Shown: positions 23,057 to 29,765 of the stretch, piece after piece | Layout of the letters: each line of letters starts with the position of its first letter | Numbering within the stretch: the stretch's first letter is position 1 | DNA from: Hyphomicrobiales bacterium | GTDB taxonomy: Bacteria > Pseudomonadota > Alphaproteobacteria > Rhizobiales > HXMU1428-3 | DNA: 64,000 nucleotides | NCBI GenBank assembly: GCA_021775425.1 | Contig: JAJFHX010000004.1 | Location: 62,001-126,000, forward strand | Direction: 5' to 3' | Made by a program: the position numbers and the translations under genes | The notes under the pieces: model-generated | What the model saw: only the letters and a program-made list of their open reading frames with translations | Told to the model about the DNA's origin: nothing | Databases searched by the model: none

Positions 23057-23659
23057 ATGAATTTTGCCCGCCATTGTTTTCCGCTTTTGTTACTGGTGCT
23101 TTATCTTGGCCTGATGGTGTGGCTGGGGATTGAGCCTTATGACCGGGCGACATGGTTTGCGGAGAATTTGCCAGTCTGGATTGTGGTTGGCGCGCTCGTC
23201 CTTACATATCGCTCATTTCAGTTTTCTAACCTTTCCTATTTTCTGATGTTTTTCTTTCTCTGTTATCACACGGTTGGCGGGCATTATAGTTTTTCGCGGG
23301 TGCCGTTTGATTTCTTTAATGATCTGATCGGTTCTGAGCGAAACAATTTTGACAGGGTCGGGCATTTTCTTGTTGGTGTGTTTGCCTACCCGGCGGCTGA
23401 GCTTTTTGTTCGCAAGGGCTGGTCAACAACGAAGTTTATAGCCGCACTTGTTGGGTTTCTGGCGGTGAGTACATGGGCCGGGCTTTATGAAGTGATTGAG
23501 ATGATTTATGCGGTGAACTATGGCGGTGAACAGGCGGATGATTTTCTTGGTAGCCAGGGTGACATCTGGGACGCCCAAAAAGACATCGCTATGGACATGC
23601 TAGGCGGGCTTGTGTTTGCCGGGAAATATCTGATGGTCGGGACGGCTGAGAAAGATTGA
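23057..23659 (+). CDS. DUF2238 (YjdF-like) membrane protein
   Basis: A 200-residue polytopic membrane protein with about five or six helices. It matches the DUF2238/YjdF family through YHTVGGHYSFSRVPFD, NNFDRVGHFLVG, and the C-terminal LGSQGDIWDAQKDIAMDMLG. The family's function is unknown. AAAGGA sits 9 nt before the ATG. It is the last gene before the ATPase island and reads in the same direction as its first module. Confidence 0.87.
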   Translation: MNFARHCFPLLLLVLYLGLMVWLGIEPYDRATWFAENLPVWIVVGALVLTYRSFQFSNLSYFLMFFFLCYHTVGGHYSFSRVPFDFFNDLIGSERNNFDRVGHFLVGVFAYPAAELFVRKGWSTTKFIAALVGFLAVSTWAGLYEVIEMIYAVNYGGEQADDFLGSQGDIWDAQKDIAMDMLGGLVFAGKYLMVGTAEKD

Positions 23660-23816
23660 GGAAGGGTGGCAGCTTTAGTAGCCTTTTTCCACTTTCAGGT
23701 GAGCTTCAATGATCTGACATCGTCATTCCAATGACTAATTTTGACTTGTTAATTTTTGTGAACCATTGCACTATTCAGGCACGTTTAAGTTGTGTGTGCG
23801 GGGAGTTTTTAGTGCG

Positions 23817-24995
23817 ATGGAGTTTCTTGAAGCATTTGATTTGAACAATCTGAAGATTGTGTTTTCTTTAGCAGCGAGCATTTGCACCATTCTTGTTTTC
23901 GGGTTTGGTATTGGGCGGTGGTTCGGCAATAAGAGCGATAAGAAGCTGATTGAGACTTTACAGCAGGAAAAAGAAAAAGCCCTATCTGAAAACGCTCAAC
24001 TTGAAAAAGATAAGGAAAAGCAATCAGAAGAGCTTACGGCGATTGGTAATATCTGGAGCAAGCCAACGCATCACGATATTAAAAAGCATTATGACGAGAT
24101 CAAAAAAAGCAACCCGATAATAACCATAGCGAACTTTAAGGGCGGTGTTGGTAAAACCACTCTTGCTGTTAACCTGGCGGCTTATTTTGACAGCATTGGC
24201 AAGCGGGTTCTGCTGATTGATTTTGATTATCAGGGCACGCTAACTGACAGCATCCATAATTCTATGCAGGCCAGTGATCCATTTTTGTCAGCGAATGTTT
24301 TATTATCTGATGAATTATCAGCTGAAGATGCTTTGATCAGGTCAGAACCATTGCATGGTCTCTTTAAATCTTCCCGTTTATTTCCCGCCTTTTATGAATT
24401 GAATGATGCAGAGACCATCATGCTTCTCAAATGGTTCCGGGGTGATAAAAAAGAGATCAGGTATAATTTACATAAATATCTTTCATCAGAAGAATTTCAA
24501 AGTTCGTTTGATATTGCCATCGTCGACGCGCCGCCAAGGCCGGGCACCTCAGTGATGAATGCTTTGTGTGCCAGCACGCATTTATTAATCCCGACCATTC
24601 TGGATCACTTTTCAGTCGAAGCGACGATGAACACAGCGCATGTGTTTGGTGAGTTGAAAGAAGACCTGAACCCTAGGCTCAAATTATTAGGCATCGTCCC
24701 CTGTAAGGTGCCGACAAAAAAATATTCTGACTATGAAACAAGAGAACTGCAAAAGCTCAAACAATTCTGTGCCAGAGGCTGGCTTGGTGAAGATGTTATC
24801 AAACTGTTTGATAAAACGCCGATCTACAATCGAACGGATATCGCACGACATTCCGGTTTGAGCATTCCCTATCTTGTTCAATCAAACCATGATGTCAGAG
24901 ACATTTTTAAAACGCTTGGTGACAATATTTTGCTTCGCTTGGAAAATAAGAACCTCAGTCACGCTGATAGTAATTTCCAATTGGCAGGAGAATAA
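23817..24995 (+). CDS. Membrane-anchored ParA-like ATPase (module 1)
   Basis: A 392-residue protein: N-terminal transmembrane helix (about residues 14-35), a Lys/Glu-rich coiled coil (about 40-75), a short NIWSKP linker, then a ParA/MinD-type P-loop ATPase. The deviant Walker A KGGVGKTT has its signature lysine at residue 108. Walker A' is DFDYQGTL, not the usual DPQ. VDAPPRPG is Walker B-like and is followed by ALCASTHLLIPTILD. GGGGAG 11 nt upstream favours ATG 23817 over 23766. The family is broadly a spatial organiser, but anchored members are unusual. The partner gene starts 3 nt after the stop. Confidence 0.85.
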   Translation: MEFLEAFDLNNLKIVFSLAASICTILVFGFGIGRWFGNKSDKKLIETLQQEKEKALSENAQLEKDKEKQSEELTAIGNIWSKPTHHDIKKHYDEIKKSNPIITIANFKGGVGKTTLAVNLAAYFDSIGKRVLLIDFDYQGTLTDSIHNSMQASDPFLSANVLLSDELSAEDALIRSEPLHGLFKSSRLFPAFYELNDAETIMLLKWFRGDKKEIRYNLHKYLSSEEFQSSFDIAIVDAPPRPGTSVMNALCASTHLLIPTILDHFSVEATMNTAHVFGELKEDLNPRLKLLGIVPCKVPTKKYSDYETRELQKLKQFCARGWLGEDVIKLFDKTPIYNRTDIARHSGLSIPYLVQSNHDVRDIFKTLGDNILLRLENKNLSHADSNFQLAGE

Positions 24996-24998
24996 GTC

Positions 24999-25463
24999 AT
25001 GAAGGTTGGAAGTATTAAATCTGGTCTGGAGAAATTGTTACCGGTTCTGGAAGAATGGGAAGCGGGAAAAGCTGCCAAAGACTTTCATAAGCTTGTTGAA
25101 TTGATGGACGGTTATGAAGACATGACCGTTGATGCTTTTTGCAAAAAAGCGCGAGAAGGGTTAGAGGGCAGGAAAACCGCAGCAAAGTCAGCCGTTAAGT
25201 CAACTTTACGGCAGGATGTGGTTGATCGTTATGTGGCGACGTTAAAGGACAAAATAAAAGACGAAGCTGCGTTTGATCAGGCACTTGATGAAGTGAATTC
25301 TGATAAACAAGTTCGCGTTGCTGAAATGAAAGCCATTGCGCAAGGGGTGATGGGCTTAACGCCGCTGAAGAAGAGCAAAAAAGCATTGATCGAAGAGATT
25401 AAAACCGACCGGGCGCAAAATATCAGAACGGAAAATAAATTTAAAATTCTCTCGAAATGGTAG
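24999..25463 (+). CDS. Small helical partner protein (module 1)
   Basis: A 154-residue, highly charged, mostly helical protein with no hydrophobic segment. I do not recognise a named family. The region RYVATLKDKIKDEAAF aligns with SYVSKLEDALGDENRF of the module 2 partner, and both share an N-terminal helix pattern (LEKLLPVLEE against IKALAEFLEN). The C-terminal VAEMKAIAQGVMG, then KKSKKALIEEI, resembles a helix-loop-helix of the SAP or Rho-N type, which can bind nucleic acid; this is inference. GGAGAATAAGTC precedes the ATG. Its start is 3 nt after the ATPase stop, so the two are co-translated. Confidence 0.75.
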   Translation: MKVGSIKSGLEKLLPVLEEWEAGKAAKDFHKLVELMDGYEDMTVDAFCKKAREGLEGRKTAAKSAVKSTLRQDVVDRYVATLKDKIKDEAAFDQALDEVNSDKQVRVAEMKAIAQGVMGLTPLKKSKKALIEEIKTDRAQNIRTENKFKILSKW

Positions 25464-25484
25464 AGCGCCTCTATATAGGCAAGC

Positions 25485-26165
25485 TTATGCTGCGGTCCTA
25501 TTGCCAGTAGCCTCTGATTTTGCGCGTCCAATCATTAGAGCTTCGTGGCGGCGTTGAATTGCTGTAATAGCGTCTTTTTTGTTTTGGATTTCCCGAGCAG
25601 CCCTTTTTGAGAATTGCAAAGCAATTTTTTTAATTATTCCTACTGATAATTTTGGCTTCTTGGTTTCCATTTCCTTGAGGATTTCAGGAAAACGATTTTC
25701 ATCACCGAGCGCATCTTCTAATTTAGACACATAGCTATATACCAGCTCTGCTTCGAGTTTTTCTTTTTCTTCTTTTGCATGTCTGGCTTGTTGTTTTTTC
25801 TGCTCAACTTGATCAATGAGTTCAATCACTGACCGAATAACTTCAGAAATAGCTTTTGAGGAATATGGTTTTAATGCGTCTCTAAATTTTTCAGTATCGC
25901 TGATAAGTGCTTTTGACTTTTGTACTTTAAGCAATGAAAGTAAATACGGCATCTGAGATATAATCACCCTTACCTCTGTGCCATGTACATTCGTATTTGG
26001 GGTGATTTTTGAAAAATTCTTTGCCAGCTGAGCCATTGTGGCGTCTGGCTGTTTTTCAAACAAAGGCATGGTTTCATGTAATGCTTTAGCGATATTCTCT
26101 GCTCCTGCATTTTCCAAGAATTCAGCAAGAGCTTTAATGAAATTACTAAATTCTTTTGCTTTCAT
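25485..26165 (-). CDS. Helical partner protein (module 2)
   Basis: A 226-residue helical protein, related by eye to the module 1 partner in both its N-terminal helices and its C-terminal third. An insertion of about 70 residues in the middle includes a Lys/Glu/Gln coiled coil (QVEQKKQQARHAKEEKEKLE). The end IQRRHEALMIGRAKSEATGN is basic. It lies 51 nt downstream of its ATPase on the minus strand and converges on module 1 with 21 nt between stops. No membrane segment. AT-rich codon use compared with module 1. Function unknown. Confidence 0.75.
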   Translation of the reverse strand: MKAKEFSNFIKALAEFLENAGAENIAKALHETMPLFEKQPDATMAQLAKNFSKITPNTNVHGTEVRVIISQMPYLLSLLKVQKSKALISDTEKFRDALKPYSSKAISEVIRSVIELIDQVEQKKQQARHAKEEKEKLEAELVYSYVSKLEDALGDENRFPEILKEMETKKPKLSVGIIKKIALQFSKRAAREIQNKKDAITAIQRRHEALMIGRAKSEATGNRTAA

Positions 26166-26216
26166 TTTAATTGTCCTAAAAAAACTTAGCTAATTGAATA
26201 ATATGACTTAGGTTAG

Positions 26217-27413
26217 CTATCCTAATTGAAGACCCATTCTACTTATTATTTTGCGACTTAAGTCTTCAAAAGCAGTATTAATATTGTTAGCGATATCACC
26301 ATCGTCATCCCTAATAGGGTAAATGATTCCTTTACTGTACGCATTTGCGATTGCTGTGTATCTGGGGATAAATGCATCCTCTATCAACGAAGTTGCTCCA
26401 CCTGCACCGCCAGCATCTCGACTCAAATTAAGCAGGTCTTTAAGTTCTTGCTTAATTGCTTCATAATTTTGTGTCTGCAGCAACATTGAACCTACTACAC
26501 CAATGTGTTGAATATGGGGACAAATATTACTGTCTCTGAGATTCTCAATTTGATTCACAAAACTTGCAACAGCATTTGAAGATGCAGGATCAAGTATTGT
26601 AGGAATAAGCAAATGTGTACTTGCGCACAGAGCCTGCATAGCGGCTGTAGTGAGCCTTGGTGGGCAATCAATTATAATTAAACTGTATTTGTTCTGTACC
26701 AAAGGATCGTGGAGAATTTCAGCTAAGTTATATCTCAAATCTTTTTTACGATCTCCAAGTAACCATTCAATCATCAATCTGTTTTCAGCCTGAGCTAGCT
26801 CATAATAGGCTGGTATAATTTCTACAAGCTCACGTTCTTTGGCTGGAAAATGAAGATCTACCAAATGATGTGCCGTTAAATCACCACTGATTAACTTGGT
26901 CGCATGAGAAGAATGAAATTTTTTGGGGGGCCAGATACGTTTATTGGTTTTTGCCATGCCAGCTAACGTCCCCTGGAAATCCAGATCAATCAAAAGGACA
27001 GGTTTTTTATCAGCCTCATTATTCCCCTCGTTCAACAATTCAGAGAGGCAGGACGCTATATTTGCTGAAATAGTTGTTTTCCCGACCCCGCCTTTTAAAT
27101 TGGCTACACTTAAAATTTTACTCCCGTTCATATTGGGTTGATAGTTGTTTAGATGATTAATAGGTTCGGCAACCCATATTCCATCACCTTCACTTAAAAG
27201 TCCGTTGTTATTTTTTCTCTCTATTTCTTTTGAAACTTTATCTATTCTCTTGAAATATTGTCTGATCCAGGAAATTAATTTCCAAATCTTAGTTCCTAAA
27301 TAAACTGCTAAAGTAATCAAAATGGCAGTAATTGTACTTGCGACAATGTCCACACCGTGATGCTTTAATGTGCCGATAAATGGCAGATCTAAATTACTCA
27401 ACCACTCAATCAT
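26217..27413 (-). CDS. Membrane-anchored ParA-like ATPase (module 2)
   Basis: A 398-residue paralogue of the module 1 ATPase. An N-terminal transmembrane helix (about residues 20-45) is followed by a basic stretch, GIWVAEP, and the ATPase domain with KGGVGKTT, signature lysine at residue 107. Shared with module 1 are DLDFQGTL, a W-LLGDRKKDLRYNL segment, and CPPRLTTAAMQALCASTHLLIPTILD. The ATG at 27413 is preceded by GGAGGGG, a strong binding site, which decides the start. The gene is more AT-rich than its surroundings, and there is no ParB. Confidence 0.85.
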   Translation of the reverse strand: MIEWLSNLDLPFIGTLKHHGVDIVASTITAILITLAVYLGTKIWKLISWIRQYFKRIDKVSKEIERKNNNGLLSEGDGIWVAEPINHLNNYQPNMNGSKILSVANLKGGVGKTTISANIASCLSELLNEGNNEADKKPVLLIDLDFQGTLAGMAKTNKRIWPPKKFHSSHATKLISGDLTAHHLVDLHFPAKERELVEIIPAYYELAQAENRLMIEWLLGDRKKDLRYNLAEILHDPLVQNKYSLIIIDCPPRLTTAAMQALCASTHLLIPTILDPASSNAVASFVNQIENLRDSNICPHIQHIGVVGSMLLQTQNYEAIKQELKDLLNLSRDAGGAGGATSLIEDAFIPRYTAIANAYSKGIIYPIRDDDGDIANNINTAFEDLSRKIISRMGLQLG

Positions 27414-27529
27414 AATCCCCTCCACGCATTACTATTGAGCGAATGATAAATATTATGGTTAATAAATCAATTATTTAGTGTAGTTAAAATATTCCTTACA
27501 AAGAATTTCTCGCCACCCTACCCTCTTTT

Positions 27530-28000
27530 TTACCCAGCTGCGCCTTTTCTTTGGGTGTCGTAGGCTTTGGCGAAGGTGATGAGGGCTTTGATGAGGTCTG
27601 GTTTGGTGGGGGATTTTTTATCAATCAGTTTGGCAAGCTTTAGCTGGAAGGCGCGGTCGATTTTTTTCAGGTTCGCTGCTGTCAATTTATTCAAGCGCAC
27701 ACGCATCAGATCTTCACCCAGATTGCGATAGAGCACCACGGGGTTGTAGGCTTTTGGGTCGAAACTGTCAGCTTGGCGGCCTGTTTTGGCTTTTGTGTTT
27801 TCCTTCGGACCGGTTGTTTTTGCTGGCTGGTTTTCTGGCTGTTTTTCTGGCTCGGTTGATTGAGGTTGCTCAATTTTGGCGATCAGATTTTCTGGAAAGG
27901 CGCTCAGCATATGTTTGGCAAAGGCCGGGTTGGTCTTTGCTTCCTCGACAATGGTCTGGAAAAACTTTTCCAGAATTTCATGGGCGGGGACTTCTTTCAT
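27530..28000 (-). CDS. Partner protein with disordered middle (module 3)
   Basis: A 156-residue protein: a helical N-terminus (about residues 1-45), a Gln/Pro/Lys/Glu-rich segment (about 47-80) that is probably disordered, and a helical C-terminus containing LTAANLKKIDRAFQL and KKSPTKPDLIKAL, a pattern like the C-terminus of the module 1 partner. It does not share the N-terminal pattern of partners 1 and 2. It follows its ATPase by 41 nt, keeping the ATPase-then-partner order. No function can be assigned. McdB-like small cargo adaptors are a functional analogy only. Confidence 0.68.
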   Translation of the reverse strand: MKEVPAHEILEKFFQTIVEEAKTNPAFAKHMLSAFPENLIAKIEQPQSTEPEKQPENQPAKTTGPKENTKAKTGRQADSFDPKAYNPVVLYRNLGEDLMRVRLNKLTAANLKKIDRAFQLKLAKLIDKKSPTKPDLIKALITFAKAYDTQRKGAAG

Positions 28001-28041
28001 ATTACATCTCTGTTGATCGATATGCAGATCGTTCCATCACA

Positions 28042-28992
28042 CTAGTCATCAAAATGAAATTGCTGCTCATAACTCATTTCTACCAAGGGGTCATCATACT
28101 CTTCAAAATGGTGAGACGCACTATCTGAATAGTCATTTTCCATAGTTTCTCCCTGCATCCAGCACAGGGTTGCCTCATGGAGATTTTCAATCAGCGCCCG
28201 GGCGGTGCCGAATTTCACCGAAGGGGTGACCGTTTCTTCGCTGAACTGGTTGGCGTTCACCAGAGCCTGTTTGGCCGGGATGCGGATGCCAAAAGCGCCG
28301 AACTCATCCTCAATTGCTGACATGACAAGCTCATTACTGCCGGCATTTGTCACTCTGTTGGCAAGTGGGCAAAGCTTTGCTTTGATGTCTCTTAAGGTGA
28401 TGTTGCGCATCAGCGCGCGGATGTTATCTTCTGCGGTCGGGTCGGGTGTGTAGGGGATGACGGCATAGTCTGCCGCGCGGAGGCCGCCCCATGCGGCTGA
28501 AGAAAGGCCCGGCGGGCAATCCAGCAAAACAATGTCATATTTACCTTTGGCGGTGCGAATGATATTCGCGACTTTTTGCTCAATTTCGAAAAAGACATCC
28601 TCTAAAGTCGGCTTTGAATTGGACATCATATAAAGCATGCCGCGCTCGGTATCATCAAGATCAGAAGAGCTTGGGATAATGTCGATGTCTGGGGTTTCTG
28701 TGCCACGCATATAAACATCGCCTGCGCCTTCGATGATGAAATTGGAAATGTTGATGTTGTCATTATCACCAAAGGCATTGATGAACATATCAGCCGCGTG
28801 GCGACCTTTTTCTTTTGCGGCCAGCCAGCGAGCAGCGCCTAAAAAACAGAGCGAGGAACTGGCCTGTGCATCCAGATCAATCACCAGAACTTTTTTCTCA
28901 CCATATAACGCAAAACCATAAGCCAGCATCATCGTGACCGTGGTTTTACCAACGCCGCCTTTGCGGTTTGAAACAGCTATGAATTTTGTCAA
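28042..28992 (-). CDS. Soluble ParA-like ATPase (module 3)
   Basis: A 316-residue ParA/Soj-type ATPase without an N-terminal membrane segment. SNRKGGVGKTT starts at residue 8, followed by LVIDLDAQASSSL (the DxDxQ Walker A' motif) and IVLLDCPPGLSSAAWGG (Walker B region). The C-terminal 30 residues are acidic. It differs from ATPases 1 and 2 in the Walker A' and post-Walker B segments and is closer to ordinary ParA. No parB or parS-like repeat is nearby, so a chromosome partition role is unlikely. It is the first gene of the module, with its partner 41 nt downstream. Confidence 0.87.
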   Translation of the reverse strand: MTKFIAVSNRKGGVGKTTVTMMLAYGFALYGEKKVLVIDLDAQASSSLCFLGAARWLAAKEKGRHAADMFINAFGDNDNINISNFIIEGAGDVYMRGTETPDIDIIPSSSDLDDTERGMLYMMSNSKPTLEDVFFEIEQKVANIIRTAKGKYDIVLLDCPPGLSSAAWGGLRAADYAVIPYTPDPTAEDNIRALMRNITLRDIKAKLCPLANRVTNAGSNELVMSAIEDEFGAFGIRIPAKQALVNANQFSEETVTPSVKFGTARALIENLHEATLCWMQGETMENDYSDSASHHFEEYDDPLVEMSYEQQFHFDD

Positions 28993-29159
28993 GATTTTCC
29001 CTATCGCGTTTTAATGCTCTATCCCGTTGTAATTGTTATTTTTTCTTTTTGGTTTTGATACGTCTTTTTGATTGGGTGGTATTATATAGATTTTTAAGCC
29101 ATTTGCATGTCCTGATATATCAACCGGTCTATATCTGTGGATTGCTTTGAATTGCGGAG

Positions 29160-29765
29160 CTACATTTCTTTGCGGGATTTGATGGCTGCGGCAAGGGTAC
29201 CTTCGTCAAGGTAATCCAGTTCACCACCAACCGGGACACCATGGGCAAGGCGGGAGATTTTCACATCTGTTTCTTCAAGCATATCGGTGATGTAATGGGC
29301 GGTAGACTGGCCTTCAACTGTCGCATTCAGCGCGATGAGGACTTCACTGACTTCCTCGCCCTTTGCCCGCTCAATAAGCGTGTTGATGTTCAGGTCATCC
29401 GGGCCGATGCCATCAAGAGGGGAGAGAGTGCCACCCAGCACGTGATACTGCCCTTTGATGACCTCTGCCCGTTCCAGCGCCCAGAGATCACCGACCGTTT
29501 CAACGAGGCAGATTAGGCTTTTGTCGCGTTTCTCATCGCGGCAAATCATACATGGGCTGAGGGTGTCTATATTCCCGCAATTGCCACATTCAACGATGAT
29601 GTCTGCGGCAACTGACATGGCATTGGCCAGTGGTTTCATCAACTGGTCTTTCTTACGGATGAGATGCAGGGCAGCGCGCCGGGCCGAACGGGGGCCAAGG
29701 CCGGGTAACTTACTCAAGAGCTGAATAAGCTCAGCGATTTCTGGACCGGTGACGTTTCTTGACAT
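29160..29765 (-). CDS. recR: Recombination protein RecR
   Basis: A 201-residue DNA repair protein that acts with RecO and RecF to load RecA at gaps. The helix-hairpin-helix [20 protein letters not shown] leads, then a zinc site ([18 protein letters not shown]), then a Toprim domain with [17 protein letters not shown]. Length and motif order are normal. It belongs to the ffs-dnaX-ybaB-recR cluster; a 150-nt gap separates it from ybaB. Confidence 0.96.

Follow-up and report, generated by a model that had tools for sequence, protein, structure and literature searches.

Three two-gene modules of ParA/MinD-type ATPases and small helical partners, two with a probable transmembrane segment, beside recR in a Hyphomicrobiales bacterium

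The DNA analysed in this study, hereafter the window, is a stretch of 64,000 nucleotides of a Hyphomicrobiales bacterium (assembly GCA_021775425.1, contig JAJFHX010000004.1), placed on contig C24 of a 3.19-Mb genome in 50 contigs. The genome gave a match to alphaproteobacterial tmRNA (E 4e-82), a model that among 14 control genomes responded only in Caulobacter. An island of 5.2 kb within it (positions 23817-28992) holds six open reading frames (ORFs), arranged as three pairs of an ATPase gene and a partner gene. We propose, with a probability of roughly 60%, that these pairs are three positioning modules of the ParA/MinD type, in which the anchor differs by module (presumed to be the nucleoid, DNA or the membrane). 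The pairing of ATPase and partner appears well supported by gene order, from the sequences alone, whereas physical pairing of the proteins, ATPase stimulation, topology, matrix and cargo are what we infer.

The first pair, on the plus strand, comprises TM-ParA1 (23817-24995; 392 aa), named for its putative transmembrane (TM) segment, and partner 1 (24999-25463; 154 aa), which begins only 3 bp further on. Both other pairs are on the minus strand: TM-ParA2 (26217-27425; 402 aa from a GTG codon, with a possible ATG at 27413) is followed after 51 bp by partner 2 (25485-26165; 226 aa), and ParA3 (28042-28992; 316 aa, TTG start) after 41 bp by partner 3 (27530-28000; 156 aa). An earlier note on this DNA had described three deviant Walker A ATPase genes, each with a small, charged, mostly helical partner encoded on the same strand, and had seen no parB, phage or transposition gene among the six. 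Both observations held, and searches of Pfam, NCBIfam and PHROGs revealed no ParB, phage structural or transposase identity among the six proteins.

All three ATPases passed the Pfam AAA_31 model (TM-ParA1 104.9 bits, TM-ParA2 93 bits, ParA3 107 bits; cut-off 27) and contain KGGVGKT with the signature lysine of the deviant Walker A motif. Both Walker A lysines and the DxD residues were invariant across 13 aligned rows, and in PHROGs the three proteins matched phrog_164, a ParA-like partition protein. The description as ParA-like in the earlier note is thus correct as far as the ATPase domain is concerned, but it overlooked an N-terminal hydrophobic segment of 19 residues in two of the proteins (TM-ParA1, residues 14-32, Kyte-Doolittle (KD) value 2.39; TM-ParA2, residues 25-43, KD 2.09), on account of which these are not plain ParAs. 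The segment is probably transmembrane. ParA3 is a ParA-type ATPase without it. In TM-ParA1 and TM-ParA2 the hydrophobic segment is followed by a linker of 67-75 residues and then by the ATPase domain. Within the TM group as a whole, a segment with KD≥1.5 was detected in 23 of the 27 proteins with a readable N-terminus (three of the 30 listed are unreadable), and the 15 residues past the segment carry a net positive charge in 25 of the 27. Since the positive flank of a TM segment lies on the cytoplasmic side (the positive-inside rule), this charge would place the ATPase domain in the cytoplasm.

A TM segment that precedes an ATPase domain would also suit another identity within this fold, either a BY-kinase at the membrane or an ATPase of the ArsA/Get3 type that serves transport. 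Bacterial tyrosine kinases such as Wzc and CpsD are P-loop ATPases of the same superfamily with TM segments. TM-ParA1 narrowly reached the cut-off of Pfam ArsA_ATPase (26.1 bits versus 24.3), and both TM proteins weakly matched the eps_fam tyrosine kinase model. We regard this identity as highly improbable: the eps_fam scores of TM-ParA1 and TM-ParA2 (29.7 and 18.3) are far from the cut-off of 108.05, no Wzz domain was found in Pfam at E 0.01, and the AAA_31 score is four times that of ArsA. None of the models among the matches listed reached a curated NCBIfam cut-off. For the three ATPases the MinD equivalog TIGR01968 gave 30.0, 26 and 46.2 (cut-off 212.9) and the RepA model TIGR03453 gave 51-69 (cut-off 348).

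The order of ATPase and partner recurs in other genomes. Profile searches with the partner alignments were performed in 397 genomes of the order and in 385 genomes of the class (counts include the window's own genome). The type of partners 1 and 2 (partner 1/2) was detected in 25 genomes of the order and 2 of the class sample, and the type of partner 3 in 35 and 3, respectively. There were 32 partner-1/2 matches in the order, reduced to 31 by counting two at one locus of G032 once; for 24 of these genes, in 21 genomes, a TM-group ParA gene (assigned by profile) lies upstream on the same strand. The TM-ParA frame is broken in G581, and in G032 a small second frame separates ParA and partner. 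Of 38 partner-3 matches 30 were examined, and every one has a ParA gene upstream on the same strand. As order and strand are repeated in other genomes, the arrangement is not a matter of chance. This agrees with the proposal of the earlier note that each partner is dedicated to its ATPase; it had named rare adjacency in other genomes, or a match of the pairs to a characterised system, as grounds for abandoning that proposal, and in the 397 genomes the partners are mostly found beside ATPases, while no characterised system was hit by the pairs.

Within the class sample G216 carries a TM pair and G372 a ParA whose start resembles a helix-turn-helix (HTH) region, followed by a partner-3-like gene; the third partner-3 row (G271) was not reproduced. 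Among the best 80 of 152 relatives' loci in the genome_contigs set, hydropathy indicated a TM segment in four (L089, L090, L103 and L165) and a partner was matched in four (L088, L089, L090 and L142). TM-ParA with partner thus occurs in a metagenome-assembled genome (MAG) of Gemmataceae (L089) and in another bacterium (L090), and a TM-group ATPase with partner in a Hydrogenophilaceae MAG (L088). In a Planctomycetota MAG (L165) the gene after TM-ParA is 297 aa long and gave no match to the partner model. A cyanobacterial ParA of Chrysosporum bergii (L103, 4400-5767), with a TM-like N-terminus (KD 1.67), precedes a 239-aa gene likewise unmatched by the partner models.

In the mechanism that we propose for the positioning modules, ATP-bound dimers of the ATPase would sit on a fixed matrix, where the adjacent helical partner would bind them, stimulate ATP hydrolysis and tie the cargo (DNA or a protein cluster) to them. 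According to PMC10241942, ATPases of this kind work on the nucleoid or the membrane, through partners that differ widely from one another, and many bacterial ParA/MinD ATPases are orphans with no partner identified. ParA3, having no TM segment, would bind to the nucleoid as soluble ParAs do. For TM-ParA1 and TM-ParA2 the matrix would be the inner membrane, where they would stay fixed for good, their ATPase domain facing the cytoplasm. As hydrolysis could not set such an ATPase free, its cycle would have to affect partner and cargo, either by releasing them or by resetting a two-dimensional pattern in the membrane.

Several observations weigh against this interpretation. No ParA was found beside seven of the 31 partner-1/2 genes (L184, L187, L189, L191, L193, L194 and L195). 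The TM call was made by hydropathy alone, with four of the 27 readable proteins below KD 1.5, and the N-terminus of the Hydrogenophilaceae relative is unreadable. Partners of such ATPases are said as a rule to have a markedly basic N-terminus, which those described here lack. Finally, no recurrent third gene that might encode a cargo was seen at the 21 TM loci, where the neighbours vary by locus.

Comparison with known systems shows both likeness and difference. In McdA/McdB and PpfA/TlpT, too, a ParA-type ATPase has a partner of its own, diverse in sequence, and parB is absent; ParC/ParP is a further ParA/partner pair for non-DNA cargo. The island differs from McdA/McdB and PpfA/TlpT in that two of its ATPases have a TM segment, the charge of the TM-type partners is C-terminal, and no cargo gene was recognised nearby (no scan was aimed at carboxysome proteins). 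MinD/MinE resembles the TM pairs as an ATPase at the inner membrane with a small adjacent partner, although the MinD model scores here are only 26-46 against 212.9, and MinD uses a reversible C-terminal amphipathic helix (PMC9178275) in place of the N-terminal TM segment seen here. The tyrosine kinases Wzc and CpsD are set apart by the Wzz domain and by the scores below cut-off. Type I plasmid partition systems (parAB, repAB) also place a partner gene after ParA, and plasmids carry HTH-like ParA genes with partner-3-like genes; the island, in contrast, has no ParB/RepB-type partner (Pfam and NCBIfam, E 0.01), and no parS-like repeat set was seen in it. No multi-copy inverted motif was detected in 23600-29200, a scan that a single or diverged site would escape. 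The ordinary parA of this genome is elsewhere, between rsmG-like and parB-like genes (read by eye).

No TM-anchored ParA was found in a literature search whose scope left out preprints and most subscription journals; passages of PMC3189178 contain both terms without linking them. If the segment is real, this type of ATPase cannot leave its matrix, and if the module works, release, a step of the usual diffusion-ratchet model, would not be obligatory. The TM pair would then offer a simple two-gene system, in a harmless bacterium, in which the need for that step could be tested. Independently of this, the partners represent two undescribed families with stable genetic linkage to ParA/MinD-type ATPases.

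Neither Pfam nor NCBIfam gave a match to partners 1-3 at E 0.01. Weak matches were confined to partner 2 (one to CARF_HEPN in PADLOC, E 2.1e-4, 18.6 bits, and one in PHROGs, E 0.0038) and, in Pfam at E up to 1, to scattered hits of one family member each (best SelO, E 0.0013). Partners 1 and 2 align with 21% identity and have their C-terminal domain in common; by alignment, partner 1 possesses one N-terminal helical unit ahead of this basic domain and partner 2 apparently two. In partner 3, N-terminal helices with an EA..NP.FA motif are followed by a low-confidence linker and a C-terminal helical domain. AlphaFold2 predicted wholly helical structures for partner 2 (5 sequences; mean predicted local distance difference test score, pLDDT, 69.9) and partner 3 (2 sequences; pLDDT 68.6, with the C-terminal domain mostly at 86-90 and a dip to 71). 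Foldseek against the PDB returned nothing at E≤0.001 for either model, and a sequence search of the PDB gave a designed helical repeat as the best match of partner 1/2 (E 0.005) and none for partner 3.

After removal of near-identical rows, 29 partner-1/2 and 31 partner-3 sequences were retained. The mean net charge of the first and last 20 residues is +0.55 and +2.38 in partner 1/2, and +1.35 and +1.68 in partner 3. A C-terminal end with a basic residue near AA or AG occurs in 28 of the 31 partner-3 and 12 of the 29 partner-1/2 rows. In hhalign comparisons bearing on a possible single superfamily of all three partners, the C-terminal domains of the two types scored better than all 100 column shuffles at a probability of 1.4-3.8, and partner 1/2 against partners from mobile elements better than all 50 shuffles at 2.4, neither likeness being significant alone. 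No alignment was obtained between the N-terminal parts, for which 32 of 100 shuffles scored equally well.

The C-terminal domain raises the alternative that the modules serve partition-like anchoring of DNA, the partners binding a chromosomal site or element through a SAP/Rho_N-like domain and the TM types holding it at the membrane. Using an alignment of the 14 of 30 loci retained by a motif filter, the partner-3 C-terminal domain exceeded all 100 shuffles against Rho_N, though at a probability of 6.3; the same likeness did not rise above shuffles for partner 1/2 (matched by 9 of 100) or for the mobile set (4 of 50). In a structural second look at the partner models, where Z reached 4.7 and thus remained under the telling level of the tool, DEK, which we take to be a SAP-containing DNA-binding protein, ranked third (Z 4.0), beneath two clamp-loader rows. 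A SAP/Rho_N-like domain may therefore be regarded as a lead only. Plasmid carriage of partner-3-like pairs also favours DNA anchoring, as do the older reports of membrane association of the plasmid ParAs SopA (of F) and QSopA, mentioned in PMC9178275. Set against the scan of the region, in which no parS-like repeat set was seen, and the presence of repABC on a Methylocystis plasmid with the pair, these points leave DNA anchoring rather unlikely in our judgement. We give somewhat less credence still to a more specific idea, that a membrane-built ParA and DNA-binding SAP-like partners tether DNA to the membrane under the control of ATP, with soluble or HTH relatives using related partners on other matrices. 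If true, the membrane-attachment model that was put forward in the past for the segregation of bacterial DNA would have a working example here.

Relatives of the third pair were found on mobile elements, where they would extend the positioning modules to another anchor, since the HTH-like ParAs may bind specific DNA. An HTH-like-start ParA (this stretch was read by eye) precedes a partner-3-like gene on two Methylocystis plasmids, on pRL1 of R. leguminosarum and on three IMG/VR contigs (L246, L248 and L266), and on a Caballeronia plasmid the partner-3-like gene stands behind a ParA without such a start. In total, ParA lies upstream of all seven partner-3-like genes examined on plasmids, on viral contigs and in G372. 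The seven mobile-set partners (three viral, three plasmid and G372; row L243 dropped) matched the chromosomal family with an hhalign probability of 97.2 (E 4e-11), with none of 50 column shuffles as good. The 80-kb Methylocystis plasmid carries repABC and a ParB-family gene besides the pair, which is thus not the sole partition candidate there. On both Methylocystis plasmids (L384 and L385) the pair has a Fic gene on one side and a type IV secretion cluster on the other, and E2/UBC, ThiF and multiubiquitin genes are found nearby.

A mobile origin of the TM pairs was also considered and rejected, as a TM-type ParA was present in none of 80 loci of the viral_contigs set (the best 80 of 327 relatives). 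With TM-ParA2 and ParA3 as the two queries, no plasmid match was obtained at 1e-15. In phages, TM-ParA2 weakly matched four ParAs, and a search at 1e-30 with the HTH-type ParA of L248 gave no match.

The earlier note had also suggested that the repeated modules arose by local duplication and divergence, and this view is contradicted by the phylogeny. In a tree of 66 ParAs, 29 of 30 TM ATPases form a single clade (99/94), in which TM1 and TM2 of the genus occupy separate subclades. Two sequences were displaced: TM_L165 is not part of the TM clade, and S3_G372 joins two viral-contig ParAs instead of the ParA3 clade. Long branches were flagged in this tree. Approximately unbiased (AU) tests, with groups chosen after the tree had been seen, rejected trees forcing the genus TM1 and TM2 together (p-AU 0.00017) as well as those in which the ParA3 group was made to join all TM ATPases (p-AU 0.0012). 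With groups so set, the tests reject local triplication and indicate that the island is, on this phylogenetic evidence, a gathering of separate lineages.

Seven further genomes of the genus were compared. ParA3-partner3 adjoins recR in five of them (G002, G003, G004, G005 and G007), with ParA3 relatives 69-79% identical; no ParA3 match was found in G001 and G006. The TM modules are more scattered: TM1-partner1 is whole in G003 and G004, G006 has the pair with its ATPase cut by a contig end, TM1 itself is cut in this way in G001, TM2-partner2 is present in G005 and G006, and neither TM pair was found in G002 and G007. Relatives of TM-ParA2 (E≤1e-15), some of them TM1-type, occur in 12 other genomes of 101. 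GC content differs likewise, being 0.37-0.38 in TM2-partner2, about 0.415 in TM1 and 0.485-0.50 in ParA3-partner3, with 0.43-0.53 in the flanks. Taken together, the pattern in the genus and the GC values suggest that the TM modules arrived later and that ParA3-partner3 is the more constant resident. A short ParA-like frame near a relaxase-like gene and a small protein in G005 (contig C5, L073, 6888-7556) appears by eye to be an ordinary mobile-element remnant.

The patchiness of the TM modules, with gain and loss within one genus and only 25 of 397 genomes carrying the partner-1/2 type (21 with a TM-group pair), would also be expected of anti-plasmid or anti-phage modules, in which extra ParAs interfere with or sense incoming replicons and a membrane ATPase serves as a trap. 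Consistent with this are the AT-rich TM2 module, the presence of partner-3 relatives in both plasmids and viral contigs, a serine recombinase-like frame (by eye) 3.4 kb away in L197, and an orphan ParI said to interfere with the IncP-7 partition system, as stated in a title cited in PMC9178275. We nevertheless consider a defence role doubtful. The six proteins gave only weak PADLOC matches (best E 1.2e-7, for the ATPases, restricted to the Walker A region) and by this search correspond to no known anti-phage system, and ParA3-partner3 keeps its place beside recR in the genus. PADLOC matches at 1e-10 were scattered among the 77 neighbours of the 21 TM loci (35 families, 25 of them shown), though no defence family among those listed has more than two members. 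The neighbours are largely of housekeeping Pfam types, including dnaX, recR, aconitase, and lysyl- and methionyl-tRNA synthetases (25 of 92 families at 1e-8 listed).

The island is bounded by def and a DUF2238 membrane protein gene on one side (the latter at 23057-23659, plus strand; PF09997, 156.9 bits), a flank kept in G001, G004 and G005, and by recR-ybaB-dnaX on the other (recR at 29160-29765, minus strand; Pfam RecR/Toprim), a flank kept in the genus genomes. A TM pair adjoins recR in three families of the order (f1, to which the genus belongs, and those of G032, L066, and G539, L198), as if this were a favoured site for TM-ParA pairs. The window contains no tRNA genes, and promoter and terminator scans and an alignment upstream of ParA3 were uninformative. 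Genes in the related loci were called longest-first by a script, which may yield false frames in GC-rich DNA. Among these loci, ParA3-partner3 pairs of two other families (L076 and L077) lie near paired VWA-domain genes, and thrS-like genes (by eye) border pairs of either the TM or the ParA3 kind in L205 (G653), L077 (G016) and L079 (G025).

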